This document shows positions 25,880 to 44,724 of a stretch of 64,000 nt of DNA, one piece after another. The notes beneath the pieces were generated by a model. It was not told the DNA's origin and did not search any database. It saw only the letters and a list, made by a program, of their open reading frames with translations. The DNA comes from Methanocaldococcus vulcanius M7 (GTDB lineage: Archaea; AGJL01; Methanococci; Methanococcales; Methanocaldococcaceae). Position 1 is the stretch's first letter; each line of letters opens with the position of its first letter. The position numbers and the translations under genes were made by a program. The stretch is taken from positions 372,001 to 436,000 of the forward strand of contig NC_013407.1 of assembly GCF_000024625.1 (NCBI RefSeq), in the 5' to 3' direction.

Positions 25880-26077
25880 ATCGATCACCGGATTTCAAAT
25901 ATTTTTATTAGATTTAATTTATTTTTCTTTTTTGATTTTTAATTTCTTTTAATTCCTTATTTGTGTTTACTCGCTTTTTTCAAGCGTTAAAATTAGATAA
26001 GCATAAATATATATAGTTTAAACGATATATAGAAGGTATTATATGTTAAAAAATGTAGAATCAGTGTGAGGGATACT

Positions 26078-26308
26078 ATGAAGAAAGATATTGTTTATAA
26101 AGCCATATTAAAATTATCAAAATCTATAAAGTCAGATAAAGGTCAGATCTCTTTAGAATTTTCTTTATTGGCAATGGTTGTAATTGTATCAGCAATTATT
26201 GTATCATATTATTTAATAAAGAGTGCAATCTACACTAAGGACACAAATATGGAAGTTATCAACCAGAGCTCTAATGTTGCTGAAAGTGTATTAACTAATG
26301 TATCATAA
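26078..26308 (+). CDS. Class III signal peptide pilin-like protein
   Basis: A small protein of 76 aa. The positively charged leader ends in DKGQISLEFSLLAMVVIV, the QxSxExxxL signature of archaeal type IV pilin-like substrates (DUF361), which are cut before the Gln by the prepilin peptidase EppA. The rest is one hydrophobic helix and a short tail. Such proteins form adhesive pili or minor pseudopilins. The ATG at 26078 follows GTGAGGG; the GTG at 26066 lies in that site. Divergent from the helicase gene. Confidence 0.88.
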   Translation: MKKDIVYKAILKLSKSIKSDKGQISLEFSLLAMVVIVSAIIVSYYLIKSAIYTKDTNMEVINQSSNVAESVLTNVS

Positions 26309-26361
26309 CACTCAAAAATTAAAAAAGTAATAAAACTATAAAAACAATTAGGTGCTAAAAT

Positions 26362-26955
26362 ATGCTGTTAATTGGGATAACAGGAATGCCCGGAGCGGGA
26401 AAGAGTTCTATATATGAGGTCGCTAAAAAATTTAACTTGCCCATAATCTCTATGGGGGATATTGTTAGATATGAAACAAAAAAGAGAGGTTTGGAGCTAA
26501 CTCCTGAAAATGTAGGAGATACTGCAATAAAATTGAGAGAAAAATTTGGGAATGAGGCAGTTGCAGTCCCCTGTTTAAAATATATTGAAGAAAATTTAAA
26601 GGATGAAGATGTTGTTATAATCGAAGGAATAAGAAGTTTATATGAAGTTAACTATTTTAGAAAGCATAAACCCCTTGTTTTGATTGCCATACATTCTTCT
26701 CCTTTAACAAGATTCCAGCGACTTAAAAAAAGAGGAAGGGAGGATGATTCAGAAAGTTGGGATATTTTCGTCGAGAGGGACTTGAGAGAGTTAGGTTTTA
26801 GTATAGGGCATGCTATCGCCTTGGCTGATTTTGTGGTAGTAAATGAAGGGGAGTTTAACAACTGTTTAAATCAGTTAGAAAATATTTTAAATAGGATTTT
26901 AAATAATTTAGATGAATTTAAAAAGTATAATTTTATTTATCAGTTGAAGAAGTAG
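26362..26955 (+). CDS. UPF0200 nucleotide kinase-like P-loop protein
   Basis: A 197-aa P-loop protein related to dephospho-CoA and adenylate kinases (UPF0200). Walker A is [12 protein letters not shown] at residues 5-16. LKKRGREDD resembles the lid region, and [11 protein letters not shown] matches the late part of this family. The substrate is unknown. GGTGCTAAAAT precedes the ATG. Its last 23 nt overlap, tail to tail, the end of the membrane regulator gene on the other strand. Confidence 0.85.
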
Positions 26956-28111
26956 ATTTATCAAAAAAAGATCTTGATATGTAGTATATTATTTTATTTC
27001 CTTCCTCTCTTGTTTCTACAATTCCAACGTTCTCCATCTTTTTTAAGTTGTATCTTACTGTCTCAACATTTAAGTTCAAATCTTTGGCGATCTTCCTAAG
27101 ATGGGCAGGGTTTTTTAAAAGATAATTGAATATCTTTTTTTGTGTCTCATTTCTTAAATAGAGTTTGGGAAGATCTTTTATATCCATCTCTACTGGGAGG
27201 TATATTATTTTATTTCCTAATCTCTCGCTTTTTATTAAATTTGCTTTCTCCAATATCCTTAAATGCCAAGTTATCGTTGATGTTGGCTTATTCAGATTTT
27301 TAGAAATTTCTCTTAGATGAGACCCTGGGTTTTCTAAGATATAGTTGTAAATCTCCTGTCGTGTTTTGTTAGAAAGAACTTTCTCTTCATCAAAAATATT
27401 TACTCTCGCTAAAATTGCAACCTTTAAAGATGCTAAGAAGGATATAACATCTAAAAATTTCTTTTTTAGAGCTTCTTGGAACGTCATCAAAAGTGATATT
27501 GTGGCAATTAAAATGACTAATAGAAGATAGTAGAAAGGAACACCCGATCTTCTAATTATTATTAAATAAATTAAATTGGCTAAAACATCTTCATTCGGCT
27601 TACATCCGACGTATATTTTGTTATCCACTCTTATGATAGCTGGCTTTCCATCGTCATATACTGCAATAACCTCTCCTGTCTTTGGAAAAGAATAAAAAGC
27701 ATAAACATTGGACTGTTTAATTTTCAATGGATCAACGACCCAAAAAATAGTAGCAGATCTATTTTCAACATTAGAACCGTTTATTGGCGAAAATATTATC
27801 GCTACTTTATTAGAGGGAGGGGTTATATCCTTATAAGTAATTATTATGTTGTAAGTTGAGTTGTTCAATTTAAATCCCAACTTTTTGATCATTGGAGCGA
27901 TGGTATCATCTGCTTTTATATATGGAGGGATTAGATAATATTCCTGCCGTTCTCCAATGTAAAAATGGGGAGTGTCATTTTTATAGGTTAAATATATTTT
28001 TTCATTGCCATAAAGATATTGATCAATGGTATCTAAGCTAAGATCAATTCCATAACTGTGGATCATAAAGATCAAGGTAAAAACAACCAAGATCGACTTA
28101 ACCACCCACAT
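26933..28111 (-). CDS. Transmembrane regulator with two cytoplasmic winged helices
   Basis: Start ATG 28111 gives a signal-type helix ([16 protein letters not shown]), then a predicted outer domain of about 165 residues with N-glycosylation-like sites. A transmembrane helix [19 protein letters not shown] lies near residues 193-211. Two tandem winged-helix domains follow, each with the phrase L-R-x-I-x-K-x-L: [20 protein letters not shown] and [20 protein letters not shown]. The wings are [10 protein letters not shown] and [10 protein letters not shown]. This looks like a one-component receptor that binds DNA directly from the membrane. Target and ligand are unknown. It is the last gene of an operon with the two following entries. 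Confidence 0.82.
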
Positions 28112-28119
28112 GTTCTCAC

Positions 28120-28365
28120 TCAATCCACGACTACTGGGGGGAGGTGTATTAACAGATACAACCCAACTGATAAGAAAATCAACGATATAAACAATAAAAG
28201 TAAGCCGATAATCTCGTTAATCTCAAAAATACCAACAAATATAAAAACTGCCAACTCAGAAAGAACAATAGATGTAGAAACTAAAAATGATCCGATTATT
28301 ATTCTCTTTCTTCTTGCCTTTCTAATCTTATCTAATTTCATTAAAAGGTCGTCATTTTCACTCAT
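28120..28365 (-). CDS. Small two-helix membrane protein
   Basis: About 81 aa: a basic N-terminal region (KLDKIRKARRKR), two membrane helices at residues about 22-44 and 50-72, and a short tail. I know no family. The ATG at 28365 is preferred, since GGTGA lies seven bases upstream; an ATG at 28371 would touch it. Its reading frame overlaps the end of the upstream surface protein by about 8 nt and lies 8 nt before the regulator, so all three are probably translated together. Confidence 0.7.
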   Translation of the reverse strand: MSENDDLLMKLDKIRKARRKRIIIGSFLVSTSIVLSELAVFIFVGIFEINEIIGLLLLFISLIFLSVGLYLLIHLPPVVVD

Positions 28366-29863
28366 TATCATTCACCTCACTATAATAAGCTTCAAGACCC
28401 ACTTTAACCGCGATCTCGCAAGCTTTTTTATTGCTTAGATATAGTTTTCCTCCATATTTAACTCCTATAACAATTGCCTTAGCAGAATTTAGTGGAATTT
28501 CATAGATCTCATGTAAATCTCTTGCGATTTCTTTTTCAGATTCAGAAAGTTGGACAATAGTGAGCCCTCCGGGGAGGATGTTTCCTAATTCACAACCTTC
28601 TGGAACATAAACAACGCCACATAAAAATTCAAGCTCATCAATGGAAAAAACTCCTTTATCTGCAATAAATGACCTCCTCCTGAATATAGGGGGGATCAAC
28701 ATCAAAGTTATAGATGTGGTTGTGATAGTAGCAACAGTTATAGCAGTTATTTTTGCTTTATCTTTTTTTATATTTTTTACAATTGCAGGATATTTCTTAA
28801 GATTGTGGGGAGGGGTTATTTCATTTGGATTTTCGGTTTTTTTATTTTCATTCTCTTTTTTTGGGACATTTTGATTATTTGAATTTTTTATTTCCTTATT
28901 TTTATTTTTATTATTTTCGATGATGTTATTGTTTTCCTCTTTATGGACTACAACTTCACTTTCTCCTCCATGATGTTGAGTATAGGGAATATTAAAACTT
29001 GCCTCTCCAACTTCTCCAATTCCTACAACATAAGCGTTTCCGACTTTAATTGCTGGCTTTATTTTTATTCTTTCTAAGACATCTCTCCACGCATAAAATT
29101 TTAAGTAAAAGGCAGGAACTGTCCCATTGTTTATAATAACAAAAGATTTTGAAATATTTTTTCCCGGTTCAAGAACAAACGAATAATTTCCAAAATTTAT
29201 TTTTTTATTATCCAAAACAGCCCAATAACTTGCATTTATGTTTAAAGATACATTTTTTGTGTTTCTTATGGTGTAAACAGCAATCCACTCAACAGAACCA
29301 TTATTTAACACTCTATTTGATTTTGTTATAGAAAATGGTATTGAAACAGAATATCGAAGTAATAACGTTGATGGAACTTCGAAACTGATATTGCTTTTTC
29401 CAAAATATAAAAAGTCGGAGTTCTGAATCTTAGAAAGCGTTATTATTTTATACGATCTTGCAGGAACTTCGACAGTGGAATTTTTTATGTTAAATCCGGA
29501 AGGGAAGGATATGTTAAATGAAATATTATAGGGATAGTTGTTAACGATCTTGTAGTATATAATATACTTATCAATACTTGCCCTATCTGCTGATATAATA
29601 ATAGATATATTAAATTTTTCAGGAGGTAGGTTAAATGTGCAATTTTCAGCATAGGGGAGATAAAATGTCTGATTTCTATAAAAGATATAGAGGTTAAACA
29701 TATCCGAATTTTCATAGTTAAAGGATAATTTAGATATGCTAATATTTTGAGATCCATTGGGATAAAAAACTACTCCTCTATACTCATAGATCTCTCCAAA
29801 ATTTAAAGATAAGAGCAAAATACACAATACCAAAGACCCAATTAACACACTGATTTTCATCAT
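28358..29863 (-). CDS. Exported membrane protein with a PIN-like cytoplasmic tail
   Basis: 501 aa with a signal peptide (VLIGSLVLCILLLSLNFG) and a beta-rich outer part with many N-x-S/T sites (about 25-300). A charged Asn/Lys-rich linker follows, then a membrane helix ITAITVATITTTSITLMLIP near 378-397 and RRR. The tail of about 100 residues reads VVYVPEGCEL, then LSESEKEIARDLHEIYEIP, AKAIVIGVKYGGKLYLSNKK and ACEIAVKVGL. That is the pattern of the second half of PIN/VapC RNase folds, with two of the four acidic positions replaced by Asn. The call of PIN-like is inference. It leads the operon of the regulator. Confidence 0.65.
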   Translation of the reverse strand: MMKISVLIGSLVLCILLLSLNFGEIYEYRGVVFYPNGSQNISISKLSFNYENSDMFNLYIFYRNQTFYLPYAENCTFNLPPEKFNISIIISADRASIDKYIIYYKIVNNYPYNISFNISFPSGFNIKNSTVEVPARSYKIITLSKIQNSDFLYFGKSNISFEVPSTLLLRYSVSIPFSITKSNRVLNNGSVEWIAVYTIRNTKNVSLNINASYWAVLDNKKINFGNYSFVLEPGKNISKSFVIINNGTVPAFYLKFYAWRDVLERIKIKPAIKVGNAYVVGIGEVGEASFNIPYTQHHGGESEVVVHKEENNNIIENNKNKNKEIKNSNNQNVPKKENENKKTENPNEITPPHNLKKYPAIVKNIKKDKAKITAITVATITTTSITLMLIPPIFRRRSFIADKGVFSIDELEFLCGVVYVPEGCELGNILPGGLTIVQLSESEKEIARDLHEIYEIPLNSAKAIVIGVKYGGKLYLSNKKACEIAVKVGLEAYYSEVNDNE

Positions 29864-29878
29864 AACATATCCACATTG

Positions 29879-32800
29879 TTAGGTTTTACTACTACTTAAC
29901 GGATCTACACCAACATTCAACCCTTCAATAGTTGTTATATTCGTGTCAATAATTATAACCTTCGTGTCATTTGGATAGAGAATATTAAATTTAAACCAGT
30001 AAGTATTTCCATTACTTCCATTTTGATCAAAATCTCCAGATATATTTAAGATCCCAACGTCGTTCGGTTTGATCCAATACACATAAACGTCTTTTGTAGT
30101 ATTTTGTGAATGAACTGTTATTACATACTTATCTGATAACATTGAAGTTGTTGCAGTTATATTGTAAAACGTTCTGATCAGCAAATAATCTCTTCCAAAT
30201 TCTGACGTTCCAATTCCAGGCATTGTCGCAGTTGCAGTTAGTAAACAGTTGTTTCCAACACCCTTTCCAGAGACATTTATTGTTCCACTGAAAAATCCAT
30301 TAGTATTGGCAATTAAACTTCCTAAATAGATCCACCCCTCTCCATAACTGTTATTCAAAACAACACCATTAGAGGAAATATTATTTCCAACTAAATTATC
30401 TCCACCGCTTGAATTCTTAACTAAATAAATCTCAACAACCGCGTTTGCAAAGTTTCCACTACCGGTTCCATTTCCAATATATCCACTTACCGTTAAACTA
30501 TCTCCCAATAAATTCGCTGATGTTATGATAGGATAATCAATACCATAATTTGCTTCATTGTAGTTCAACACTCCATCATTTGGAGTTATATTATCATCAT
30601 CTAAGTCAATTCCTAACAGAGAGTTGTTATAAATTGAATTTTTGGATATTATTATATTATAAGGAACAAAATCCCAGTTAGGGATAGTTATTCCTTTTTC
30701 ATTGTTAAAGATCGTGTTGTTAATTATACTGATGTCTTTACTTGCTCCAACTGAGATACCATAAGCGGAATTATTTGCTATAATGTTCTTTGAGATAGTA
30801 AAGTTAAGGTTGATCCAACTCTCATTTAACCCATAAATCTCAATTCCTCCAACCTTTCCACCATAATTTTGATTTGGACAGATATTATTATCAACGATCT
30901 TGTTTTCCTCAATTAATATTGATCCATTGTCTTGATTATAACCTCCATATGCTCCAACGGTTATTCCCGCTGTTATACTCCCAGTAGGAACAGTTAATCC
31001 GTTATATTGGATAGTGTTATTTATAACACTTATATTTGTTCCAATCCAATCCCAAGCGTTCCAGCCATTTGCCTCCTGAATCAAAATTCCCTGAGCATTG
31101 CTGTATTGTATTGTGTTATTTACTATGGATAAATTCTCAACCCTTCCTCCAATGTATATTCCATTTCCACTATTATTTTGGATACCATTATTTGAAATGA
31201 AGTTGTTATTAACTAATATGTCTTTTAAGATTTTGCTCCAAAGCCCCTCTAACGATATTCCATTTCCTAAATTGTATGAAATATTATTTTGTGAGATTAA
31301 AATCCCTCTTGTATAGTTTCCACTTATTTTTATACCACTTCCAGCTGGATCTCCTCCAATCAAACCGTTGTTAATTATTGAGTTGTTTATAATGTTTATT
31401 GAATTTACTCCATAGATGAAGATACCATCTCTATAAGAAGAATTTATCAATGAATTGTATATGAATATATTTGAAGCATTTCCTAATGAGTTAATAAACA
31501 ATCCATAACTTCCACTGTTTAAAATACTAACATTATAGAGTTTTAAATTATCTAAAAATCCACCAGATGGAATATCTATCCTTATACTGCTGTTTATCGA
31601 ACTGTTTAGTACTGAATTCACTATAACAAGATCTGACAAATTGCCATAAGATAAAACTGAATAATTGTTATTCCACAGCATTGAGTTTTCAACACTTACG
31701 TTGTCTCCATTAAATACTGCAATTCCATCCACACTCGAATTAAATATCTTTGATCTGTTTATATTTACATTTGAAGAATTAACAATCTCAATTCCGTAGT
31801 TATTATATGAAATGCTGGATTTTTGGATTGATGAGATATTGTTTTCTTTTAAATAGATCCCTATACTATTTTTTGTGAGATTTGCATTAAATATTAAAGA
31901 TGATGAATTTAACAGAGATAATCCTTCATATCTGTTTTTGAATATGAGAGAATTATTTATCAATAAACTTGAAATATTTGCATAAACCCCCACAGAGTTG
32001 TTTATTAGTGATGAATTAATTATTCCAAAGGTTGAGTTTTCAGCATAAATCCCTTCATAAATTGAGTTTTCAACTGTGGAATTCAACAACTTCATACCAT
32101 TTCCATTCTTATATAGAACTAACCCCTGATCACATGAGGTTATTGTAGAATTATACACAGTTATATTTCCAAAACCACCTGCCCAGTTTGCCCAATAAAC
32201 TCCAACTCCATTTTTTAAAGATATTTTTGAGGAAGAAATATTTGCCCAAATTTTATTTAGCATTAAAATTCCATAATCTCCAGAGGCGTTTATGGTTAAG
32301 TTATGTATCAATGATGGGAATGACTGCAAACTCCAATCATAATCAACTAACTTAATTCCTGCATTTAATATCCTTCCATAAATTCCACAATTCTTTACTG
32401 TTAAATTATTTAATCCCGTTTCATTCGCTAATATTCCAACACTTAAATTTTCAAATTCAATATTTCCAATGTATGTATTAGCCCCTAAATTGTCAATAAT
32501 TGTATTTGGAGATATTTCCTCAAGGTTTAAGAGATCATCTCCACTCTCTACATATATTGGTTTTACATACTGTAAGTTTTTCGCTCCTCCAGTTCCTCCT
32601 GTGAATCCGAAGTATGTTATGTTTCCTATAATTTGTGTTATGTCTTTATTCCATGTTAGTGTTAGATTCCCATCGAAATACACTTGGAGTGTTTTTGTTG
32701 TTGCATTCCATACGATTTTTACTAAGTGTTCTCTTCCATCTTCGATATTGCCCAAATCGTATGGTAGGGGTGTTAAATAGGTTATGTTGTTGTAGGTGTG

Positions 32801-35800
32801 ATTTACTTCTCCATTAACGTCTATTGCAGTGTGATCGGTTGTTGCTGGATCGTCAAAATCGTTATGCCACGTATCGAACTCAACAGCAACACTTGGAGAG
32901 ATTCCTTCATAGCCCAAAGCTCCCCCACTTCCTCCCAATTCATTAGTTCCCAATGGCTGTAAGGTAAAGGTTATCCCATCCGCTCCATTTGGATTATCAC
33001 CCAAATAAGCATAAAACTCAACAACAAAGTCATTTGATAGATTAATTGGTTTGTAATACCAGACACTTCCATGCTGATCATCAAGATCAGGAGTTAATAC
33101 AAGTGTCAAATTGCTATTTGAGTTATTTATATATGCGTTTCCATTAGTTATCCACTGCAATCCAGACAATACAACAGATCCATTTTCTTGAGTAGAGCCA
33201 TTTATAACTGTTAAATTATCCAATATTTTGTTTTCATTTGTGTAGATGAAATACCTCTCATCCTTTGCTTCAATACTTGGTATCTTGAAATAACTCTCAT
33301 CCTCTCCAGAAATTGCATTTGCATTTTTTATAAATTGGGAAAAACTTCCCTGTCCAGTAGATTTTGTATTTGTTATTACATCAAAACTAAATCCAAAAGT
33401 TATGTTTTCTCCATGATAGGAGTTTAAATCAACCATACAATAATGCTCATAATCTCCATTATTCCAGTTATCATCTTTGTCAGGATCTCTTCCTCCAAAC
33501 ATCTCAACTACTCCATATGTTGGGGCAATTACATAGTTGTTTCCATTTTTCACATATATTGGTTTTACATACTGTAAGTTTTTCGCTCCTCCAGTTCCTC
33601 CTGTGAATCCGAAGTATGTTATGTTTCCTATAATTTGTGTTATGTCTTTATTCCATGTTAGTGTTAGATTCCCATCGAAATACACTTGGAGTGTTTTTGT
33701 TGTTGCATTCCATACGATTTTTACTAAGTGTTCTCTTCCATCTTCGATATTGCCCAAATCGTATGGTAGGGGTGTTAAATAGGTTATGTTGTTGTAGGTG
33801 TGATTTACTTCTCCATTAACGTCTATTGCAGTGTGATCGGTTGTTGCTGGATCGTCAAAATCGTTATGCCACGTATCGAACTCAACAGCAACACTTGGAG
33901 AGATTCCTTCATAGCCCAAAGCTCCCCCACTTCCTCCCAATTCATTAGTTCCCAATGGCTGTAAGGTAAAGGTTATCCCATCCGCTCCATTTGGATTATC
34001 ACCCAAATAAGCATAAAACTCAACAACAAAGTCATTTGATAGATTAATTGGTTTGTAATACCAGACACTTCCCGCTTCGCTATAATCATCTGTTGTCAGT
34101 AGAAGTTTATCTGGGAATATTGAAGCGTTTCCGTTGGCAATCCATTGAGAGGAGTTTATTGGGCTATATTCTGTTTGATACGTTTCCTCAGCCCAAATAT
34201 CGTTTTTAGTATATCCAGGATTTAACGGTCTTGTAGTCCCCACAGTTTTTGAATTTACCACTACAAAGTAGGTTTTTGAAGTGTTATAAACTAAGAAGGA
34301 ATATCTTCCAAACACATCTGTTGTTGTTGAATTTATTATTTTATCTCCAATATCTGGAATACCATCATTGTTGCTGTCTTCAAGTAGGGATACATTGACA
34401 TCATATATTCCTTTATCCTCGCTATCTTCTTTCCCAAGAGTTCCAAAGTCCTCTTTTACATAGCCCTGAATCTCATATCCGCAGTATACTGTGTAATTTT
34501 TTTGTGAAATTACGCCATTGGATTCGATTCCTGTTATTGTAATGAGGTATTTTCCTGACTCTGGAAGTGTGAATGAGTAATTATATAGTTTCCAAAGTGA
34601 TGGGGAGTTGTTATCTATCTCTTGCAATAGCATTGATGAATTTATATATAAGCTACCATTTGGATAATATATGCTTATATTTGCCCCTTTTATATCATAG
34701 GAGCCAATAGGATCTGTGATATTTGCAAATATCGTTGCATTTTCATTTGGAAGATAAACGCTCTTATCTGAAAATATATTATGGACTTTGACATAAGTTG
34801 TTGTATTTAGCGTTATGTTAGATGGATATGTTATATTATGGTAGATGTTTATCGAGTCGAGAGATATTTGGTTCTCTATTCTTAAAACTAAATAGTAGTT
34901 TTTAGGTATTGTAATTATTGAATCTAAGGTTATGTTGAAGGTGTATGGAGTTATTGCATTACTTAACTGCAAATCTTCGGTATCACTTCCCAATGTAAAT
35001 GAATTAACCCCATCTGTGGCTATTAATGAGACAACAATTCTATGTGTCTCAGTTCCAGATGTAATATCTGGATCGTTCATATAAAGTGAAATTGGGATTT
35101 GTCCTAAAACTGTAAAATCATCTGCAAATCTTGGGGATTGTACCCAAGAAGCCAAGGAATTGCTATTAATTGTGGTATAGTTGTTAAGAGTTGTAGGTAT
35201 TGAGGTGTTTAGTGTTTTTAAAGTATCTCCATGCAGATAAAAGGTTTTTTGAACTGATGGAGGATATGGAGTTGATGTTTTGAATGTTGCCTCTCCGAAT
35301 ATTGAGGGATTATTTGTATTTACAAATTTTAAAGTGGTTGTATCAATCTCTCCTAATGGGGCTGTTGAAGGAATCGTCTTTGAGACGGTTAAGTTTATCT
35401 CACCAGTTGGCACATAAATATCTGGAAGATCGTTTGCATTTGTATCATAGTTTGGATTTATATAATCCCAAATTCCATCTCCATTGGTATCTTCAGCTAT
35501 TAAAATGGAGTTGTTATATATCTTTGTCATCCATCCCTTTGTTGAGTTGGTTATGTTAATATCAAACCTTCCCCCATTTCCAAAGTTATATAAGGTTATG
35601 TTGTAAAATATCTCTTCTCCAGCATTTCCTGTTTTTTCCTGATATTTTGGCTGGATTGAGAATGATGTTATATAGATTATAATGCTTTTTTCATCGTTTG
35701 ATGTATTTTGATCCTTTGGAAGATTTGTCTTTACTGTTATGTTGTATGCCCCATAAGGCATATTTGAAATGTTTATTGGAAATACAACATCTTTCTCTTC

Positions 35801-38566
35801 ATTATAAGGAACTGAGAGATTTATTAACGTTGAGTTTGTATATTTATAGGTTCCATTAATTTGAGTTATGTTGATGGATACATTTAGGTTGTATGCATCT
35901 ACCAAACCATACAAAGCAATTGTTGAATTTACATATATAATTTGAGTGATATTTGGATTAAAACTATCTCCATTATTTGGACTATTGATACTTTTAACTC
36001 CAGCATCGTATAACTGACTTAACCCCATGTTTATTTCATTCATCATGTCTGTGTAGTTATAACCCAATCCCCAAATTATTGGCACTACCCAAATATCATC
36101 CTGTTTTATATTAGATGTTCTCCATTCTAAAGCAGTTGCGGCATCTCCTGAGTAGTTTGATAAGTTGTTTAAACTACTTCTGTAAATATCTCCCCACATT
36201 CCAGAGGTTATGATACTACCACTTCCTGTTAATCTATCTGTAAAGTAATTAACATCATGGGCAGAACTGTTTAAAATGGACTTAAATCCTCCATATCTTA
36301 TATTGGTGGTTGTGATCGATGAGTTATCGTGTCCATACACTATGTCATCAGTTTGATTATAGTAACATTCATCATCTGAATAATTTCCATTGAAATTCCA
36401 ATCACATCCCTGAAAAAATCTTACATTTGAGATATTTCCAGCAACTGGTTTTATATAATAGATTGTAGCAAACCATTTATTATTTCCTCTAATGATTATT
36501 TTTTGAGTTATATTTACTTCTCCCCCTTCAGTTTTCATTTTTGTTAATATTGCACTTTCCAAAACACCATCTGGGACCGTATTTAAATAGATGTAGGTTG
36601 AATTTATCTGAGTTATGTTTCCATCAGCTCCAAGAGTTGAATATGTTGGTGCATAATTATTTTTTCCTTTATAATAGAAATATTCATTTCCATATTGATA
36701 ACTAACTCCATTTAAAGTAAAGTTTATAGCAAACTTTGTTCCAGCATCAATATCTATATTATTTCCAAAACCGTTATCTTCTGTCCTCCCCAAATGATCG
36801 TTACTTGCGTTATCTGTTCCGTTGTATGGAAATTCAATTGCTGAGATCTGTCCTCCACCTGCATAGGGACCATTATAGGCCACTTCAACAGCAATTGAGT
36901 TATTTGGGGCTGGAGGGATCAATGATATATCATATCCATAAATGGGGTCGTCATAGAAGTATAGTGTGTTATTTTCAATATACCATCTTACTTCTCCAAT
37001 AACCTCTCCTGTTAGTCGATTTATTGAAATATTATTATTTATTACTCTTCCGTCATCCCCAATAATTTCTTTAACCCTGTATCCTTTTGGAATCTTACAA
37101 CTGAATCTATACCAAACTCCATCTATTTTATTATTAACCTCAACTCTAATCTTGTTGTTGCTTATTTTTTTCACTATCTCTGTCGTATTTAAAATATTTT
37201 CAGAGAGGTTGTATTTTTTTAAAGTTTTTTCATCTGCTTTAAGTTTAATTTCTACAACACTAAAATTATGCAGACCCATTATTTTTGAGATTTTATATTT
37301 CTTTTTATTTTTATATTTTCTCAGTAGTTTTTTTATCTCCTTCTCATTGCCTTCAAGTTTTATAATTATCTCTTTATTCACTGGATCGTAAGCGATTAAC
37401 TTTCTGATCTCTTCCGTATTTTTGAGTTTAACTTTTATCTTCTCTTTTGCATTTCCACAAACTAAAATTATTTTTTTAACTTTTTCTGGTTTTGAGATGT
37501 TTAATTTTGCTATTAAGTAGTTCAATGGAATCTCAAAGGTTGCATTTATCAGAGAGATGTTTATTTCCTTTTTCTCTACAATGCAGGTTATAAACTTTGG
37601 CTCTTTAACATAATATGAAACATTCCCAACGATAACTCTATTGTCTATCACTTCTGCGTTGATCTTATAGTAATCCACTGCAAATTTTTTCTTAATTCCA
37701 TCAATAACTGCGGTATAATTACCTAAAATTACATCTTTATTTAATTTTTTGTATAATATGTAATATTGTCCTTTTTTCTTGATTTTCAATGTTATTATAT
37801 TGTTATTTGGGGTCATGATATATGCAGTGTTTGGCTTAAAGTTTGTTTTTATAACTATTTTTTCTGAGGGGAAGTAAATATCGTTCATAATAATGGTTTT
37901 ATTTGTTTTATTTTCTTTTGTTGTGTAATTTAAAAAGATTGTTTTATTTAGAGTTTCGTTTTTGAATTTTGCATAAATAATGATAGTTTGATTTAAAATT
38001 ATTGGATATGCAATATATTCTTCTTTTTTTATCTTTTTTATCTTAACTTTAATATTGAGATTTAAGTATTTGGCGTAGGGTTTTCCATTCGTTTTAATGA
38101 TTAGTTTAAAATCGTTGAATGATATGTTTAGATAATGTTTTTTAGCATTATTATGCTTTGATAATGTTTTATTTCTGTTTTTACTTATATTTAGGGATGT
38201 GTTTGAGGAATAGTTTAAAATTATTGTTTTGTTTAACGTTTTATTTTCAAATTTTGCATATATGCTTATCGGAACATTTAGGGGGATGGGGGAGAGGATG
38301 TATGTGTCATTCTTAATTTTTATAGGTGCTAATTTGGAATTATTTGCAAAGGCATATACCTTTCCATTACTTTTTATAAAAACTTTATATCCTTTAATAG
38401 ACACATTTAAATATACAGATTCAGAATGATTTTTGGATTTAGATGAGTTTTCTAAGTTAGAAGAGTTTATAATGGAAGTATTGCTTATATTTACTCCAAT
38501 TGCAACGTTTGAAAACAATAAAATAACCAAAGTAAATACTGCAAACTTTTTAAAAATGCTCGTCAT
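29879..38566 (-). CDS. Giant surface protein (adhesin-like; lectin and beta-helix domains)
   Basis: A 2895-aa exported protein. The start ATG 38566 has GTGGGATACT upstream and gives a clean signal peptide (VFTLVILLFSNVAIG). Residues about 40-230 hold two or three small repeats (SVYLNVSIKGYKVFIKSNGK type). A long beta-rich part follows, with a CARDB-like unit near 870-960 and an SdrD-like unit near 1365-1430 (DSNNDGIPDIGD, a calcium-loop phrase). Two almost identical L-type-lectin-like domains lie near 1475-1670 and 1800-2005 (FVVEFYAYLGDNPNGADGIT). A right-handed beta-helix of NosD type spans about 2020-2640. No C-terminal membrane anchor is seen. It probably acts in surface attachment or glycan binding. 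Confidence 0.8.
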   Translation of the reverse strand: MTSIFKKFAVFTLVILLFSNVAIGVNISNTSIINSSNLENSSKSKNHSESVYLNVSIKGYKVFIKSNGKVYAFANNSKLAPIKIKNDTYILSPIPLNVPISIYAKFENKTLNKTIILNYSSNTSLNISKNRNKTLSKHNNAKKHYLNISFNDFKLIIKTNGKPYAKYLNLNIKVKIKKIKKEEYIAYPIILNQTIIIYAKFKNETLNKTIFLNYTTKENKTNKTIIMNDIYFPSEKIVIKTNFKPNTAYIMTPNNNIITLKIKKKGQYYILYKKLNKDVILGNYTAVIDGIKKKFAVDYYKINAEVIDNRVIVGNVSYYVKEPKFITCIVEKKEINISLINATFEIPLNYLIAKLNISKPEKVKKIILVCGNAKEKIKVKLKNTEEIRKLIAYDPVNKEIIIKLEGNEKEIKKLLRKYKNKKKYKISKIMGLHNFSVVEIKLKADEKTLKKYNLSENILNTTEIVKKISNNKIRVEVNNKIDGVWYRFSCKIPKGYRVKEIIGDDGRVINNNISINRLTGEVIGEVRWYIENNTLYFYDDPIYGYDISLIPPAPNNSIAVEVAYNGPYAGGGQISAIEFPYNGTDNASNDHLGRTEDNGFGNNIDIDAGTKFAINFTLNGVSYQYGNEYFYYKGKNNYAPTYSTLGADGNITQINSTYIYLNTVPDGVLESAILTKMKTEGGEVNITQKIIIRGNNKWFATIYYIKPVAGNISNVRFFQGCDWNFNGNYSDDECYYNQTDDIVYGHDNSSITTTNIRYGGFKSILNSSAHDVNYFTDRLTGSGSIITSGMWGDIYRSSLNNLSNYSGDAATALEWRTSNIKQDDIWVVPIIWGLGYNYTDMMNEINMGLSQLYDAGVKSINSPNNGDSFNPNITQIIYVNSTIALYGLVDAYNLNVSINITQINGTYKYTNSTLINLSVPYNEEKDVVFPINISNMPYGAYNITVKTNLPKDQNTSNDEKSIIIYITSFSIQPKYQEKTGNAGEEIFYNITLYNFGNGGRFDINITNSTKGWMTKIYNNSILIAEDTNGDGIWDYINPNYDTNANDLPDIYVPTGEINLTVSKTIPSTAPLGEIDTTTLKFVNTNNPSIFGEATFKTSTPYPPSVQKTFYLHGDTLKTLNTSIPTTLNNYTTINSNSLASWVQSPRFADDFTVLGQIPISLYMNDPDITSGTETHRIVVSLIATDGVNSFTLGSDTEDLQLSNAITPYTFNITLDSIITIPKNYYLVLRIENQISLDSINIYHNITYPSNITLNTTTYVKVHNIFSDKSVYLPNENATIFANITDPIGSYDIKGANISIYYPNGSLYINSSMLLQEIDNNSPSLWKLYNYSFTLPESGKYLITITGIESNGVISQKNYTVYCGYEIQGYVKEDFGTLGKEDSEDKGIYDVNVSLLEDSNNDGIPDIGDKIINSTTTDVFGRYSFLVYNTSKTYFVVVNSKTVGTTRPLNPGYTKNDIWAEETYQTEYSPINSSQWIANGNASIFPDKLLLTTDDYSEAGSVWYYKPINLSNDFVVEFYAYLGDNPNGADGITFTLQPLGTNELGGSGGALGYEGISPSVAVEFDTWHNDFDDPATTDHTAIDVNGEVNHTYNNITYLTPLPYDLGNIEDGREHLVKIVWNATTKTLQVYFDGNLTLTWNKDITQIIGNITYFGFTGGTGGAKNLQYVKPIYVKNGNNYVIAPTYGVVEMFGGRDPDKDDNWNNGDYEHYCMVDLNSYHGENITFGFSFDVITNTKSTGQGSFSQFIKNANAISGEDESYFKIPSIEAKDERYFIYTNENKILDNLTVINGSTQENGSVVLSGLQWITNGNAYINNSNSNLTLVLTPDLDDQHGSVWYYKPINLSNDFVVEFYAYLGDNPNGADGITFTLQPLGTNELGGSGGALGYEGISPSVAVEFDTWHNDFDDPATTDHTAIDVNGEVNHTYNNITYLTPLPYDLGNIEDGREHLVKIVWNATTKTLQVYFDGNLTLTWNKDITQIIGNITYFGFTGGTGGAKNLQYVKPIYVESGDDLLNLEEISPNTIIDNLGANTYIGNIEFENLSVGILANETGLNNLTVKNCGIYGRILNAGIKLVDYDWSLQSFPSLIHNLTINASGDYGILMLNKIWANISSSKISLKNGVGVYWANWAGGFGNITVYNSTITSCDQGLVLYKNGNGMKLLNSTVENSIYEGIYAENSTFGIINSSLINNSVGVYANISSLLINNSLIFKNRYEGLSLLNSSSLIFNANLTKNSIGIYLKENNISSIQKSSISYNNYGIEIVNSSNVNINRSKIFNSSVDGIAVFNGDNVSVENSMLWNNNYSVLSYGNLSDLVIVNSVLNSSINSSIRIDIPSGGFLDNLKLYNVSILNSGSYGLFINSLGNASNIFIYNSLINSSYRDGIFIYGVNSINIINNSIINNGLIGGDPAGSGIKISGNYTRGILISQNNISYNLGNGISLEGLWSKILKDILVNNNFISNNGIQNNSGNGIYIGGRVENLSIVNNTIQYSNAQGILIQEANGWNAWDWIGTNISVINNTIQYNGLTVPTGSITAGITVGAYGGYNQDNGSILIEENKIVDNNICPNQNYGGKVGGIEIYGLNESWINLNFTISKNIIANNSAYGISVGASKDISIINNTIFNNEKGITIPNWDFVPYNIIISKNSIYNNSLLGIDLDDDNITPNDGVLNYNEANYGIDYPIITSANLLGDSLTVSGYIGNGTGSGNFANAVVEIYLVKNSSGGDNLVGNNISSNGVVLNNSYGEGWIYLGSLIANTNGFFSGTINVSGKGVGNNCLLTATATMPGIGTSEFGRDYLLIRTFYNITATTSMLSDKYVITVHSQNTTKDVYVYWIKPNDVGILNISGDFDQNGSNGNTYWFKFNILYPNDTKVIIIDTNITTIEGLNVGVDPLSSSKT
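32550..33070 (-). repeat. Internal 521-bp direct repeat, copy A
   Basis: By eye every base is the same as 33552-34072 (offset 1002). It encodes the C-terminal lectin-like domain of the giant protein. Identity extends over silent codon positions. Confidence 0.9.
33552..34072 (-). repeat. Internal 521-bp direct repeat, copy B
   Basis: The second copy of the lectin-like coding segment. Flanking sequence on both sides is unrelated between the copies, so the edges are sharp. Confidence 0.9.
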
Positions 38567-38675
38567 AGTATCCCACGCAAAAACTTTTAACAATTGAAGA
38601 TATTACTATCAAAAAGTAAAGTAATATAAAGTAGTATATAAAATTTATAGAACAAATTTTGGACAACTATTTCCG

Positions 38676-39407
38676 TCATTCTTTGGTGTTATATTTATCG
38701 TCCCTATTTTTTCGTCTTAATTCTGTATATACGAATATTAATATGACGATACACAGGAGTGTTAACCAGAATACCATATATCCATGAACTGGGAGTTTTG
38801 GTAAAGGTAGTGGGGAAAACTCAGCATTTATAATTAATAGAGTATTTTTTGGAATTTGAAAGTCATTCCCATCTGGATTTTGATACGTTAAATGATAGGG
38901 GGAGATGAACTCAATATGAAAGTGTCTTATGGTGAGATCTCCACCTACAGGAATCGATACGGTTTTAAATAGGATTCCATCGTCAACAATATCAGCATCG
39001 TATTCAATTATTAAGGTTATATTTTTACCTCCTTCAATAGGATCCCAAATCTGATAAGTTATAACAGAATAGTTTTCCTTATAAGAGACATTTATATCAA
39101 GTGGATATTTTTTTCCATTTAATATATAATATCCCTTTAAATTTTCAATTTTTATTGGCTTTTTTTCTTTTGTAAATGGAATCGGGATAAAAAATATTCT
39201 TTTTGATTCTTCTTTTTGTAATCTCAATTCTGCAAATCCTGGGATTAAAGGATACTTCACAAGGTTTTTTATTGTAATAACCTCAGTAATGTGGGCAGGA
39301 TTTTTTGTTAGGTCAACTGTCATATTGTAATTTGAAATTTCTTCAACATCTGCAAAGATTGGGCTTATTAGAGAAAAAAATATAAGAAAAATTGCAATTT
39401 TTTTCAT
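38676..39407 (-). CDS. Exported membrane-anchored protein, unknown function
   Basis: About 243 aa. The signal peptide is KKIAIFLIFFSLISPIFA. A beta-rich outer domain begins YNMTVDLTKNPAHITEVIT. One C-terminal helix (MVFWLTLLCIVILIFVYTEL, about 212-231) is followed by a basic tail. The outer domain has the look of a conserved archaeal surface-domain (I cannot name it). GGGGGAT precedes two adjacent ATGs; the second fits the spacing better. It lies about 110 nt upstream of the giant surface gene on the same strand. Confidence 0.7.
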   Translation of the reverse strand: MKKIAIFLIFFSLISPIFADVEEISNYNMTVDLTKNPAHITEVITIKNLVKYPLIPGFAELRLQKEESKRIFFIPIPFTKEKKPIKIENLKGYYILNGKKYPLDINVSYKENYSVITYQIWDPIEGGKNITLIIEYDADIVDDGILFKTVSIPVGGDLTIRHFHIEFISPYHLTYQNPDGNDFQIPKNTLLIINAEFSPLPLPKLPVHGYMVFWLTLLCIVILIFVYTELRRKNRDDKYNTKE

Positions 39408-39540
39408 CATATCCCCCTAATGGTTTTTTATCACTAACGTTGGTGTCGTTTTTGATCGTAGGATGTTTTATTTTGATCATTTAAATTGGTTTGTCTATAA
39501 TGCTTTAATTAGTTTTGATTTAATAATTTAATAATATAAT

Positions 39541-42483
39541 TTAAGTTAATCTTCTTATTATTAGTGTTAGTGTTGTTAGTAGGGTTGTTAGTGCGAGTAG
39601 TGGTTCTGTGTTGTTGTTTATGTCTCCTGTGACTGTTGTAATTTTTGGGGAGGTTGTTGGTAGGAGTGAGTTTGTAGGGTCGATTCCTACGATGAATGCG
39701 TCGCTTGGGTAGAATTCTCCGGTTCCGTTTAGTTTGTAGTGTATTACTACTGTTTGGTTGTTTTGTATTTCGTTCCAGTCAGTGTAGCTTCCATCTCCGT
39801 CAGCGCCTGGGTATATGGATTTTAAAGCCCACCACATGCTTAAATTGTATCTTGGATTTGACGTTAAAACTTTGGATCCATTAGCAATCAACATGGTTGA
39901 TCGATTAACCCACTCATCCGAGACAGTAAAGTTCTTTGGAATCAAATCATAAACATACACATAATTCGGCGTCTTCTCACTACCAATATTCTCCACCACA
40001 ATATACACATCATAACTTCCATCAGCATTCGGAACAATATGCTTAGTCACCTTAACCAAATAACTACCTACTACGTAGATTTCTTCTACAATAATATAAG
40101 AACTACCCATTTGAGAAGTTTCTTGGGTTATCGAGTATCCGTCTTTTGTTATTGAAAATGAGAAATTAGCCCAAACAATTGGAACACCGTTAAATGTGAA
40201 GTTGAATGTTGGGGAGTTCCAAACATCTCCTGCTGAGATAATCACATTAGGTTGTAGGGAATAGTTGCTTCCATTTATTAATATCGATGTGTTGAATGGA
40301 TCATAACATAGATCATAGGCAGATTTGTTAACTGCCCAAATTTTGAAACCTGTTATATTAAAGGAATACGATTTTGCAGTATTTTTAAATGAGGCGTTTT
40401 CAGTCCATACGTTGATCTCTCCAGTAATTCCGTGAGACGTTGAAATCATACAATTACCTGATGCATAAACCCCTTCTATTGAAGTGTTTGTATGAGTTCC
40501 ATTATAATTAAAAATTATTTTTGCAAATCCAAAATCTACTTTTGTTGTGCTTCTGTTGGCATAAGTAAAGTTTCCAGAGATATTGAATATCAAATTTGCA
40601 GAGCTTTTGCTCCAATTTAAACTTATGTTGCTCCAATTTAGAGCGGTTGGAATTGAAGTGTTATAATCTTTTTTGAAGTAGTCACCATCAAAGGTGTAAA
40701 CACTCCCCACACTTGGTTTTGTGGATGTTATTTTAAGATAACTCCAATTTTTATTCCCATAAAAGTTAAAGTTTTTTGAATCAACTTCTAAATCATCAAC
40801 GTAGTAGATATACCCTCCATGAACAACTACTCTATCAAATTTGTTATAGGTTGTATCAACTGTCGAGACAGTAGCAGCTAATGTGCCGTTTTGGTAGTAT
40901 GTTGAAAACGTTATCGTTCCGTTTGAATATATCTTTAATTCAAAGTAATACCACTGATCTTCTGGAGGATTCCAAAGGACTTCTTGACTTATTTCAGTAG
41001 GGTTTCCATTGGTTCTTCTGTCAATTGATATATAGTTTGAATAGTGGTTAACTTCAAAGGAATAACCATTAAAATTACTATCTTCTAAACCAATTCTATC
41101 TATTGGTCCTCCACCCCAATTGCTTGGTCTATAAATCCACCCTTTAACAATAACATCTCTCCCAATAACAGCAGGAAGCTTTTTATATCCTCCATTAGGG
41201 TCGTAATTTAAATATTTCTCTAATGAATAGTTTCCAGAATGGGAAACAGTAGATGACTGTTTAACTGCCCCTTTGGAATAGTTCATCCAACCTGTCCAAT
41301 TTTCAAAGTTATCATAAAACTGTCCATTGCTTAAATACTTTACAATATTGATATTAACGTTTGTTCCGTTCGGAATGATATTTTTGTTCAAGTAAACAGT
41401 CAAATTTACACTCCAATTTGATAATCTATTTGCGGGAATCTTGTTTTGATATGTTTCATTTATTAGAACTGGAATAACATCAGAAGCAGATATATCATAT
41501 GCTAACTCTACATAACTGTTGTTTGGAAGAACTGGAATAAACACATAGGTGTTTGCTTGTGGTAAGTTTGTATATGCAGGGGCTGAACTCTTGATAAAAA
41601 CTCCTTTTGGAGTTCCGTTGTAAATAACTCTTAAACCACTTGCATTATTTGTTAAGTTAATAGCAATCCAGACATTGTTTAACGTATCCTCAATATATGG
41701 GGCAGTGTTTTTAATTATAAAATGCCCAGTTAAGCTTGGATTATAGTTAGTTTTTCCAGATCCGTCAACTGTGGCGTTTATATTATACTCTTCTAAATAT
41801 TCAACTTTCAAAGGATGTAAATATTCAACTTCTAAATCATCAACATAGTAGATATACCCTCCATGAATAACTACTCTATCAAATTTGTTATAGGTTGTAT
41901 CAACTGTCGAGACGGTAGCTTCCAGGGCACCGCTTGCATTGTAAACTTCTAATCTTAATGTTCCATTTGACAATACATAGAATTTGAAATAATACCACTG
42001 ATTTTCAGGAGGATCCCAATTTGCAAGTGCTAAGGTAGAAACTGTTATTCCCCCAACTCTCTTTTCTATTGCAATTTTATTGTAATCGTGCTCAATCCTT
42101 ATTGAATAACCATCAAAATTGCTGTCTTCGATTCCAATTCGGTCCCATCGTCCACCAGTGTAGGGATAAACTCTATAAATCCATCCGCTGACAACGATGT
42201 CTCTACCTACGGGGTTGGAGAGATTTTTATATCCACCACTTGGATCGTTGTTTGATGTGGAATTTCCATATTTTTCTAAGGAATAGTTTCCGGAGTGAGA
42301 AACAGTGGATGATTGTTCAACAATACCATACGAATAATTTGCCCAACCTGTCCAATTCTCAAAATTGTCATAAAATACTGTTATATTATCAGCAGAAACA
42401 TTACTTATCATTAAGAGAAACATTATTAAAACTAAACATAAAGCAATACTCAAATTTACAGATTTAAAATTTACCTCTGCCAT
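39541..42483 (-). CDS. Surface protein with duplicated jellyroll domains
   Basis: 980 aa. After a signal peptide (SIALCLVLIMFLLMISNVSA) come two related LamG-like units, about 33-220 and 390-570, each starting YDNFENWTGW and ending YIYYVDDLEV. Beta-sandwich parts follow, then a DUF11-like domain near 790-860 (LVKVTKHIVPNADGSYDVYI). The C-terminus is GDINNNTEPLLALTTLLTTL plus LTLIIRRLT, a hydrophobic helix ending in arginines. The last ~190 residues are nearly identical to the next gene upstream. GGTGATTCATAG precedes the ATG. It is an S-layer-associated or sheath protein by style. Confidence 0.75.
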   Translation of the reverse strand: MAEVNFKSVNLSIALCLVLIMFLLMISNVSADNITVFYDNFENWTGWANYSYGIVEQSSTVSHSGNYSLEKYGNSTSNNDPSGGYKNLSNPVGRDIVVSGWIYRVYPYTGGRWDRIGIEDSNFDGYSIRIEHDYNKIAIEKRVGGITVSTLALANWDPPENQWYYFKFYVLSNGTLRLEVYNASGALEATVSTVDTTYNKFDRVVIHGGYIYYVDDLEVEYLHPLKVEYLEEYNINATVDGSGKTNYNPSLTGHFIIKNTAPYIEDTLNNVWIAINLTNNASGLRVIYNGTPKGVFIKSSAPAYTNLPQANTYVFIPVLPNNSYVELAYDISASDVIPVLINETYQNKIPANRLSNWSVNLTVYLNKNIIPNGTNVNINIVKYLSNGQFYDNFENWTGWMNYSKGAVKQSSTVSHSGNYSLEKYLNYDPNGGYKKLPAVIGRDVIVKGWIYRPSNWGGGPIDRIGLEDSNFNGYSFEVNHYSNYISIDRRTNGNPTEISQEVLWNPPEDQWYYFELKIYSNGTITFSTYYQNGTLAATVSTVDTTYNKFDRVVVHGGYIYYVDDLEVDSKNFNFYGNKNWSYLKITSTKPSVGSVYTFDGDYFKKDYNTSIPTALNWSNISLNWSKSSANLIFNISGNFTYANRSTTKVDFGFAKIIFNYNGTHTNTSIEGVYASGNCMISTSHGITGEINVWTENASFKNTAKSYSFNITGFKIWAVNKSAYDLCYDPFNTSILINGSNYSLQPNVIISAGDVWNSPTFNFTFNGVPIVWANFSFSITKDGYSITQETSQMGSSYIIVEEIYVVGSYLVKVTKHIVPNADGSYDVYIVVENIGSEKTPNYVYVYDLIPKNFTVSDEWVNRSTMLIANGSKVLTSNPRYNLSMWWALKSIYPGADGDGSYTDWNEIQNNQTVVIHYKLNGTGEFYPSDAFIVGIDPTNSLLPTTSPKITTVTGDINNNTEPLLALTTLLTTLTLIIRRLT
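39551..40126 (-). repeat. 576-bp shared C-terminal coding segment, copy A
   Basis: Nearly identical to 42607-43182 at constant offset 3056. I count only a handful of single-base differences, plus a small cluster of silent changes near 40068-40088. Confidence 0.9.
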
Positions 42484-42590: not shown

Positions 42591-44417
42591 TTAGTTGTTC
42601 ATGGCCCTTCTTATTATTAGTGTTAGTGTTGTTAGTAGGGTTGTTAGTGCGAGTAGTGGTTCTGTGTTGTTGTTTATGTCTCCTGTGACTGTTGTGATTT
42701 TTGGGGAGGTTGTTGGTAGGAGTGAGTTTGTAGGGTCGATTCCTACGATGAATGCGTCGCTTGGGTAGAATTCTCCGGTTCCGTTTAGTTTGTAGTGTAT
42801 TACTACTGTTTGGTTGTTTTGTATTTCGTTCCAGTCAGTGTAGCTTCCATCTCCGTCAGCGCCTGGGTATATGGATTTTAAAGCCCACCACATGCTTAAA
42901 TTATATCTTGGATTTGACGTTAAAACTTTGGATCCATTAGCAATCAACATGGTTGATCGATTAACCCACTCATCCGAGACAGTAAAGTTCTTTGGAATCA
43001 AATCATAAACATACACATAATTCGGCGTCTTCTCACTACCAATATTCTCCACCACAATATACACATCATAACTTCCATCAGCATTCGGAACAATATGCTT
43101 AGTCACCTTAACCAAATAACTACCCACAACATAAATCTCCTCCACAATAATATAAGAACTACCCATTTGAGAAGTTTCTTGGACACTTCTATTTATTAAG
43201 GTTATGTTTTGATCTGCAACTTTGAAGATACCTCCTGCCCAGATAACTGGGACTCCATCAAATGTGAAGTTAAGTTTTGGGGACTGCCAACTTTCTCCTG
43301 GAGCTATAATCTGGTTTAAAGTGGTTGAGTAGTTATATATTGGACTAAGTGAGCTTGGATCTAATACTTGTATGTATTGAGTTCCGTTGTATGCTTTTAT
43401 AGAGACGTTTGTTAAGTTGAAGTAGTATTCTGATGCAGTATTTGAAACATTTGCACTTGTTTGCCATATTTCATACTTACCGCTTGATGCGTTTAAGAAT
43501 GGCCCTTCTTTGGTTGCACTTGCTCCGCAGTATCCGGTTGCATAAACTCCTTCAACTTTTGTTCCAGATCTTGTTCCATTAAATTCAAAGAAGATTACTG
43601 CAAAACCATATTTTTCTAATGTTGCGGTTCTATTTGCATAAGTGTTATTTCCAGTTATGTTAATTGAAATACTTGCGTTTTGAGTTGAGTTTAATATATT
43701 GCCTGTCCAAAGTAATGAATCGTTTGCATTTCCAGTAAAGTATGGGCCGTTATATGTTATAACGTTTCCTTGGTTTACTGTAAAGCCAGTTATGTTCAAA
43801 AGATTCCACGTATTGCTTCCGTAGTTGTTTGAGTCATTACTTAGATACTTTGCCATGCTAACTAAAACAGGCGTATTTGTTGAAGGTAGAGCTGAAATAT
43901 TTCTACTTATATTTATATAAACAACCCAGTTAGACGGTTTTCTTGAAGGTATTTTATTTGTGCTGTATGCTTCGCTAACTATTATTGGAATTCCTGTTAT
44001 TGATTTGTTTATGCTAAAATTGATTATTACATAACTGTTGTTTGGAAGAACTGGAATGTGTATGTAGGTGTTTGCTTGTGGTAAGTTTGTATATGTAGGA
44101 GCTGAACTCTCAATAAAGACAGGTTTTGGTGTGTTGTTTACTTGAACTGCTGGGGCGGTTGTGTTGTTAGAGATGTTAACTGCCACCCAAACATCTGAGA
44201 GTGTATCATTTATTGTTTTTCCAGTGTTGTTGATAATAATATATCCGGTTATTGAGTTTATTGTTGAATTTACAGTTCCATCTCCAAGAGTCTTTCCAGT
44301 TATGTTATATTTTTCATAGTATGATACATATAGGGGGCCGTTTTCTCCGTAAGCAGAAATTGCCCCGAGAAATAGAAACATAGATAAAATTGAAATTAAT
44401 AGTATGCTTTTTTTCAT
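42591..44417 (-). CDS. Surface protein, paralogue of the 980-aa neighbour
   Basis: 608 aa with a signal peptide (SILLISILSMFLFLGAISA) and a beta-rich body with many N-x-S/T sites. It has the same C-terminal DUF11-like domain and anchor-like tail (LTTLLTTLTLIIRR) as the gene at 39541. It lacks the two jellyroll units of the larger paralogue but shares its N-terminal phrase SSAPTYTNLPQANTY. GGTGAAGAT precedes the ATG. It is the first gene of the surface cluster, with a long upstream control region holding a 17-bp palindrome. Confidence 0.75.
   Translation of the reverse strand: MKKSILLISILSMFLFLGAISAYGENGPLYVSYYEKYNITGKTLGDGTVNSTINSITGYIIINNTGKTINDTLSDVWVAVNISNNTTAPAVQVNNTPKPVFIESSAPTYTNLPQANTYIHIPVLPNNSYVIINFSINKSITGIPIIVSEAYSTNKIPSRKPSNWVVYINISRNISALPSTNTPVLVSMAKYLSNDSNNYGSNTWNLLNITGFTVNQGNVITYNGPYFTGNANDSLLWTGNILNSTQNASISINITGNNTYANRTATLEKYGFAVIFFEFNGTRSGTKVEGVYATGYCGASATKEGPFLNASSGKYEIWQTSANVSNTASEYYFNLTNVSIKAYNGTQYIQVLDPSSLSPIYNYSTTLNQIIAPGESWQSPKLNFTFDGVPVIWAGGIFKVADQNITLINRSVQETSQMGSSYIIVEEIYVVGSYLVKVTKHIVPNADGSYDVYIVVENIGSEKTPNYVYVYDLIPKNFTVSDEWVNRSTMLIANGSKVLTSNPRYNLSMWWALKSIYPGADGDGSYTDWNEIQNNQTVVIHYKLNGTGEFYPSDAFIVGIDPTNSLLPTTSPKITTVTGDINNNTEPLLALTTLLTTLTLIIRRAMNN
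42607..43182 (-). repeat. 576-bp shared C-terminal coding segment, copy B
   Basis: Partner of 39551-40126. The tract ends in both copies at the TTTCTTGG shared before unrelated sequence. Confidence 0.9.
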
Positions 44418-44724
44418 ATCTTCACCTCTAAGCTGGTTGTGTATTTGTGGGGGAGGGGTGGTCTTTACATTAGTTTATTATACGATTGATAATATATATA
44501 GATTATAGAACATTTTTTAGACATGGGTTTTTAAATTGGTTTAATAAAATAGGTAATTTACCTATATGGTTATCAAATACTAACAACCAATATATAAACT
44601 TTTCGATATTAAGGTTATCAATACCCAATAAGATAAGTTAGTAATCGGATAATAGGGTGTAATATTACTTGATTATTAAAAAAAGAGAAAATATTTTAAA
44701 AAGTAGTAAAAATTTTATAAATTG
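44418..44724. other. Intergenic control region upstream of the surface gene
   Basis: No gene seen. It contains a minus-strand TATA-like CTATATATATTATC at about 44489-44502 for the surface gene and the palindrome listed separately. There are two direct GGTTATCAA repeats (44568-44576 and 44613-44621). TTTAAAAAG/T-rich stretches near 44690-44724 may end pyrG transcription. Confidence 0.6.
44549..44565. promoter_or_regulatory. Perfect 17-bp palindrome (candidate operator)
   Basis: ATAGGTAA-T-TTACCTAT reads the same on both strands around one central base. It lies about 47 bp upstream of the presumed TATA box of the surface gene at 44417, where archaeal activators or repressors can bind. Confidence 0.55.

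Follow-up and report, generated by a model that had tools for sequence, protein, structure and literature searches.

A candidate membrane-spanning regulator, its predicted promoter element and a PIN-like anchor in a giant-surface-protein gene cluster of Methanocaldococcus vulcanius and other Methanococcales

In the window (the whole 64,000-nt stretch of the Methanocaldococcus vulcanius M7 chromosome that was analysed, NC_013407.1 positions 372,001 to 436,000), three genes follow a very large one on the same strand, and an earlier note had read them as a unit that senses the state of the surface and controls surface genes by transcription and perhaps by RNA cleavage. The locus raises the question of which genes such a unit would control, through what site, and what part a PIN-like membrane protein would have in it. 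The tight coupling described there was borne out, with ORF overlaps of 4 nt (REG/TM2) and 14 nt (TM2/PINL) and a gap of 16 nt between PINL and GIANT. The cluster begins at about 44523, beyond the region delimited in that note, and takes in GIANT, three further surface genes and two promoter elements; its genes form two units (GIANT-PINL-TM2-REG and g42591-g39541-g38676):

26933..28123, minus strand: REG, 396 aa, with N-terminal signal/TM, outer domain, TM and two wHTH domains
28120..28371, minus strand: TM2, 83 aa, two predicted TM helices (one long hydrophobic block by hydropathy)
28358..29863, minus strand: PINL, 501 aa, exported beta-rich anchor with a single TM and a cytoplasmic PIN-like tail
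29879..38593, minus strand: GIANT, 2904 aa, exported, two L-type lectin domains and a beta-helix; heads the REG transcription unit
38676..39410, minus strand: g38676, conserved exported single-TM partner gene
39541..42483, minus strand: g39541, conserved surface protein, paralogue of g42591
42591..44417, minus strand: g42591, conserved surface protein, first in the upstream unit

The lectin domains of GIANT were matched in Pfam at 1.1e-102 (PF18483), as expected of an L-type lectin adhesin. Of the proposal that a giant adhesin gene lies alongside, the same-strand operon linkage stands, and the label adhesin is plausible from the two lectin domains and the beta-helix. GIANT also contains a 521-bp exact direct repeat (32550-33070 and 33552-34072), which is a recently duplicated lectin domain, and g39541 and g42591 have three exact blocks of 221, 206 and 89 bp in common at their 3' ends (39551-40068; 42607-43124), suggesting recent gene conversion. 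Convergent to REG, an ORF with a class III signal (pilin-like) and a gene for a UPF0200-type kinase (26066-26955) are kept beside the cluster genus-wide.

A total of 36 Methanococcales genomes were compared, in which the neighbourhood order g42591-g39541-g38676-GIANT-PINL-TM2-REG was conserved. PINL was found in 16 of them and the outer domain of REG in 8, every one with PINL; confident matches to that domain occurred nowhere without PINL. PINL and REG are adjacent in seven other genomes, in most with a recognisable TM2 gene between or beside them and in one with a split REG ORF, a degree of conservation above that expected by chance. The gene set is kept across three genera, and the conservation of the three genes with the giant gene was upheld. 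The split ORF (G012, L055:5619-6801) is broken between the outer domain and the wHTH part, through sequencing error, decay or a genuine split. REG has been lost from three cluster-bearing genomes (G005, G006 and G010). Another clade (G024, G025 and G030-G032) likewise has PINL without REG, in some cases on short contigs. PINL does not need REG, since the PINL core is the more widespread of the two. Overall, presence of the cluster is patchy, with repeated loss, and it resembles the archaeal surface/secretion 'dark matter' islands of lineage-specific membrane and secreted proteins described in methanococci (PMC4158269). In the literature searched, no published account was found of the cluster, its operator or a PIN-like transmembrane anchor with a giant-protein operon, nor any of the locus tags MJ1396-1398.

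The predicted regulator comprises three domains besides its membrane segments:

27563..28054, minus strand: outer domain of REG, residues 24-187
27182..27382, minus strand: wHTH 1 of REG, residues 248-314, Pfam HTH_24/HTH_5
26978..27160, minus strand: wHTH 2 of REG, residues 322-382, second Pfam stretch

The DNA-binding part consists of the two wHTH domains (HTH_24, 1.4e-17 over two stretches), the first of which matches PDB 5duk at 6.6e-13. In the alignment of REG homologues, the helix motif WHLRILEKA of wHTH 1 (invariant across 7 homologues) and the motif VETVRYNL of wHTH 2 are invariant. Hydropathy gave an N-terminal signal/TM, one main TM (residues 185-220, with the TM of the domain map set at about 195-220) and a shorter hydrophobic stretch (residues 223-244). 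The direct membrane-to-DNA architecture described earlier was thus recovered by Pfam and hydropathy, with outer domain and TM carried on one chain as in membrane-bound one-component transcription factors, and the predicted topology places the outer domain outside and the wHTH pair inside. AlphaFold gave no confident fold for the outer domain (pLDDT 54), and against Pfam the best match was a weak one to Glyco_hydro_42M (E 0.033), with no informative family. The genome-wide A2 scan returned few loci beyond the Methanococcales, those in Asgard archaea by wHTH similarity alone. A lone 157-aa wHTH pair, 71% identical to that of REG, adjoins UPF0200 in G001 (L069:6757-7230), at a locus from which the entire surface cluster is missing, and is possibly a soluble derivative of REG.

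The DNA-binding fold is common to REG and ArsR/MarR-type wHTH proteins, with significant profile matches (HTH_5, HTH_24, HTH_HVO_0163_N; PDB 5duk, CzrA). The usual ArsR/MarR-type site is an inverted repeat, whereas REG has two tandem wHTH domains in one membrane-protein chain and a predicted 11-bp direct-repeat site. Membrane-bound regulators of surface genes are already known in archaea, namely the one-component proteins ArnR and ArnR1, which control the archaellum and pili of Sulfolobus (PMC6396743); what is new here is an 11-bp direct repeat plus TATA element specific to the cluster. Compared by description only, ArnR/ArnR1 and REG are alike as archaeal membrane-tethered HTH proteins tied to surface-structure genes, the control by REG being predicted. 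They differ in that the HTH motif of ArnR sits in the N-terminal region (PMC13286277) and its operons are type IV pilus-like, whereas REG has a C-terminal wHTH pair behind an outer domain and belongs to a giant-protein operon.

Two copies of the candidate site lie in the window:

38635..38665, minus strand: promoter element at GIANT, 11-bp direct repeat plus TATA, 41 nt ahead of the GIANT ORF, matching the consensus with 0 mismatches
44493..44523, minus strand: second promoter element, 75 nt ahead of g42591, matching the consensus with 2 mismatches

Comparison of upstream regions gave a 31-bp consensus, TGTCYAADDWW-TGTTCYATAAAKWWTAWATA, in which an 11-bp direct repeat is fused to a TATA box; the half-sites (11 bp each, TGTCYAAAAAA / TGTTCTATAAA) are direct, one helical turn apart and at a fixed distance to the TATA. 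Scanning the 36 genomes at up to 3 mismatches, with the reversed consensus as control, produced 22 matches and 0 for the control, a count that is no independent discovery test, as the consensus was built from these same loci. Checked against gene starts, 21 of the 22 precede GIANT, g42591, PINL or REG of the cluster, and what supports the element is that it stands before unrelated genes across three genera and is absent elsewhere. The sole match elsewhere (G007:C1:943521), with hydrogenase genes on one side and a small gene on the other, was not accepted as a target. In G035, where REG is first in its unit, the element precedes REG. A leave-one-genome-out matrix scan scored sites of REG genomes at 30-44 bits at most promoters tested; lower scores came from sites with shifted spacing (11-12) in G022 and G035 and from a weak site in G029 (3.5), and at some cluster promoters, for example that of PINL in the window, the matrix scan found no element.

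The element was present within 3 mismatches in 8 of 9 genomes with REG (a weaker copy in the ninth) and in 2 of 8 with PINL but without REG (G005 and G006; absent from the other six). The association of element and REG reached a Fisher p of 0.015 among cluster carriers and 1e-5 over all 36 genomes, values not corrected for ancestry and with the draft genome G008, in which the REG end and GIANT lie on contig pieces, taken as a carrier. Another soluble regulator might read the element, or the element might be a strong shared core promoter, with REG acting on other genes. G005 and G006, which retain sites without REG, speak for these explanations and against REG as the reader, and so does the inclusion of the BRE/TATA position in the element. 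However, it tracks REG across genomes and is absent both from genomes without the cluster and from REG-less carriers of another clade, and its direct repeat reaches 11 bp past the core promoter, so that we regard this pair of explanations as rather unlikely. Of three related REG-less genomes, two retain the element before PINL, one retains it before g42591 and none before GIANT; the third genome has no copy.

We consider it fairly probable that REG is a membrane-spanning one-component regulator of its own giant-surface-protein cluster, acting through the promoter element, and that the products form a surface assembly with a PINL/TM2 adaptor. Because two tandem wHTH domains fit two direct 11-bp half-sites near the TATA, the pair in one REG chain could bind both; acting before GIANT-PINL-TM2-REG and g42591-g39541-g38676, REG would close an autoregulatory loop. 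Its outer domain would probably read the state of the envelope or of the assembly and alter DNA binding. Overlap of the element with the BRE/TATA position suggests repression, and the rigid spacing to the TATA suggests contact with initiation factors. We infer REG as the binder of the element, and likewise the sign of control, the state sensed and a contact between PINL, TM2 and REG. To our knowledge, targets are known for only a few of the transmembrane regulators of archaea; here the regulator is a predicted one, but its site is defined to 31 bp, the regulon is closed and genomes that gained or lost the parts can be compared, which makes the proposal directly testable and, if it is true, giant archaeal surface proteins would be tied to transcription.

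The part played by PINL would depend on its tail:

28361..28681, minus strand: PIN-like cytoplasmic tail of PINL, residues 395-501, catalytic set incomplete

Hydropathy of PINL gave a single TM (372-393) besides the N-terminal signal. The protein had no match in Pfam or NCBIfam, and the tail of the window protein, searched alone against Pfam, had none either. In AlphaFold modelling (14 tails), the tail reached a pLDDT of 84, with strands and helices alternating in PIN order, and its best Foldseek matches were nearly all PIN (best E 0.018, probability 0.99, TM 0.60). We take these matches, the unnamed entries among them included, to be the PIN domains of VapC4, Nob1, VapC complexes and archaeal structural-genomics PINs. 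The strongest PDB sequence matches, to dTor designed repeat proteins, were dropped as an artefact of 18 residues only. A profile of the tail independently recovered Pfam-called PIN proteins (HHalign P = 7e-11). The exported protein with a PIN-like inner tail that the earlier note described was found again, and models and profiles confirm the tail as a shortened PIN fold, homologous to the PIN superfamily by sequence and fold; of the two structure predictions the note called for, this one succeeded and that of the REG outer domain did not. The homology extends to PIN-domain RNases (VapC, Nob1; PF01850), from which the tail differs in its length (about 107 aa), its fusion to an exported membrane protein and catalytic acids that are not jointly conserved. 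A VapBC toxin-antitoxin assignment was rejected, as the tail belongs to a single-pass exported protein with TM2, GIANT and REG as neighbours; no antitoxin gene was seen beside PINL at the locus.

The catalytic positions of PINL in the window are D402 (placed via the fold), S460 and N478 (placed via the HHalign alignment), and the check concerned three acids, the fourth of true PINs falling in an unaligned segment. All three together were found in none of 14 homologues of the tail (S at the third position in 11 and D in 3, none of which has the first acid). Cleavage of RNA by the tail is unlikely, because the catalytic aspartates are jointly kept in none of the 14; control by RNA cleavage, the other arm of the original proposal, found no support, and membership among active PIN RNases was rejected on the same residues. 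That the tail nevertheless has RNase activity, possibly with TM2 or a partner PIN completing it in trans on the model of the composite SMG5-SMG6 PIN, has in its favour a true PIN fold, the known sharing of one active site by two PIN domains (PMC12923823) and, in family f9, a TM2 with an added C-terminal domain that is PIN-like in look (weak profile support, P = 0.025). This domain is absent from TM2 of Methanococcales, and with the residue counts above we judge such activity quite improbable. In the adaptor reading favoured here, the outer beta-domains of PINL would hold or accompany GIANT, PINL would reach the cytoplasm through its catalytically incomplete PIN-like domain, and this domain and TM2 would serve as adaptor or reporter; if so, a membrane-tethered PIN fold would have a non-nuclease role.

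Relatives beyond the Methanococcales bear on whether the tail signals at all, the core of anchor, 2-TM protein and giant extending to other archaeal phyla. In families f3, f9 and f99, relatives of the PINL outer domain adjoin relatives of GIANT; those of f3 and f99 are 798-aa proteins that keep the outer domain without a PIN tail and have instead CARDB/NEW3 domains, a TM and a short tail. These relatives, and the patchy presence with repeated loss, would suit an ordinary island of lineage-specific surface genes whose membrane regulator is autoregulated; PINL would then be a structural anchor only and its tail a non-signalling fossil. Against a fossil speak the conservation of the tail (mean column identity 55%), in which non-catalytic residues are invariant, and the retention of TM2 beside PINL across phyla; we hold that explanation to be possible, if doubtful. 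The TM2 end in most Methanococcales (28120-28140 in the window) is a hydrophobic strand with an acidic residue (PPVVVD), located where the f9 extra domain starts, and is possibly a remnant of that domain.

In the distant family f18, it is the GIANT relative that has a TM with PIN-like tail at its end (P = 2e-4 against the PINL tail, 3e-3 against true PIN), and the gene after it encodes a wHTH protein with two TM helices (HTH_24 in 5 of 5, best 1.3e-5); locus L128 additionally has a REG-like membrane regulator. This arrangement counts in favour of the reading of REG given above. Homology of TM2 to these 2-TM-wHTH proteins was too weak to accept (P = 0.03), leaving an analogy by gene order and topology only, and a match between the PINL outer domain and the C-terminal part of the f18 giant was likewise weak (P = 0.014). 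As a tentative extension, and one we think has a minor chance of being right, archaea of several phyla might share an outside-in signalling arrangement in which a giant or anchor with a single membrane pass and degenerate inner PIN acts together with winged helices tethered to the membrane and a 2-TM partner, coupling transcription of the cluster directly to the state of the surface protein that it encodes. An unrelated 1058-aa surface protein of G109 (L110:7805-10981; CARDB, cysteine-rich repeats) likewise ends in a TM and PIN-like tail, so that the architecture may have had more than one origin. In one f18 giant (L126:10182-10472), the PIN-like tail matches, below the cut-off (E 3e-4), Pfam TbsP_N, a haloarchaeal regulator domain.
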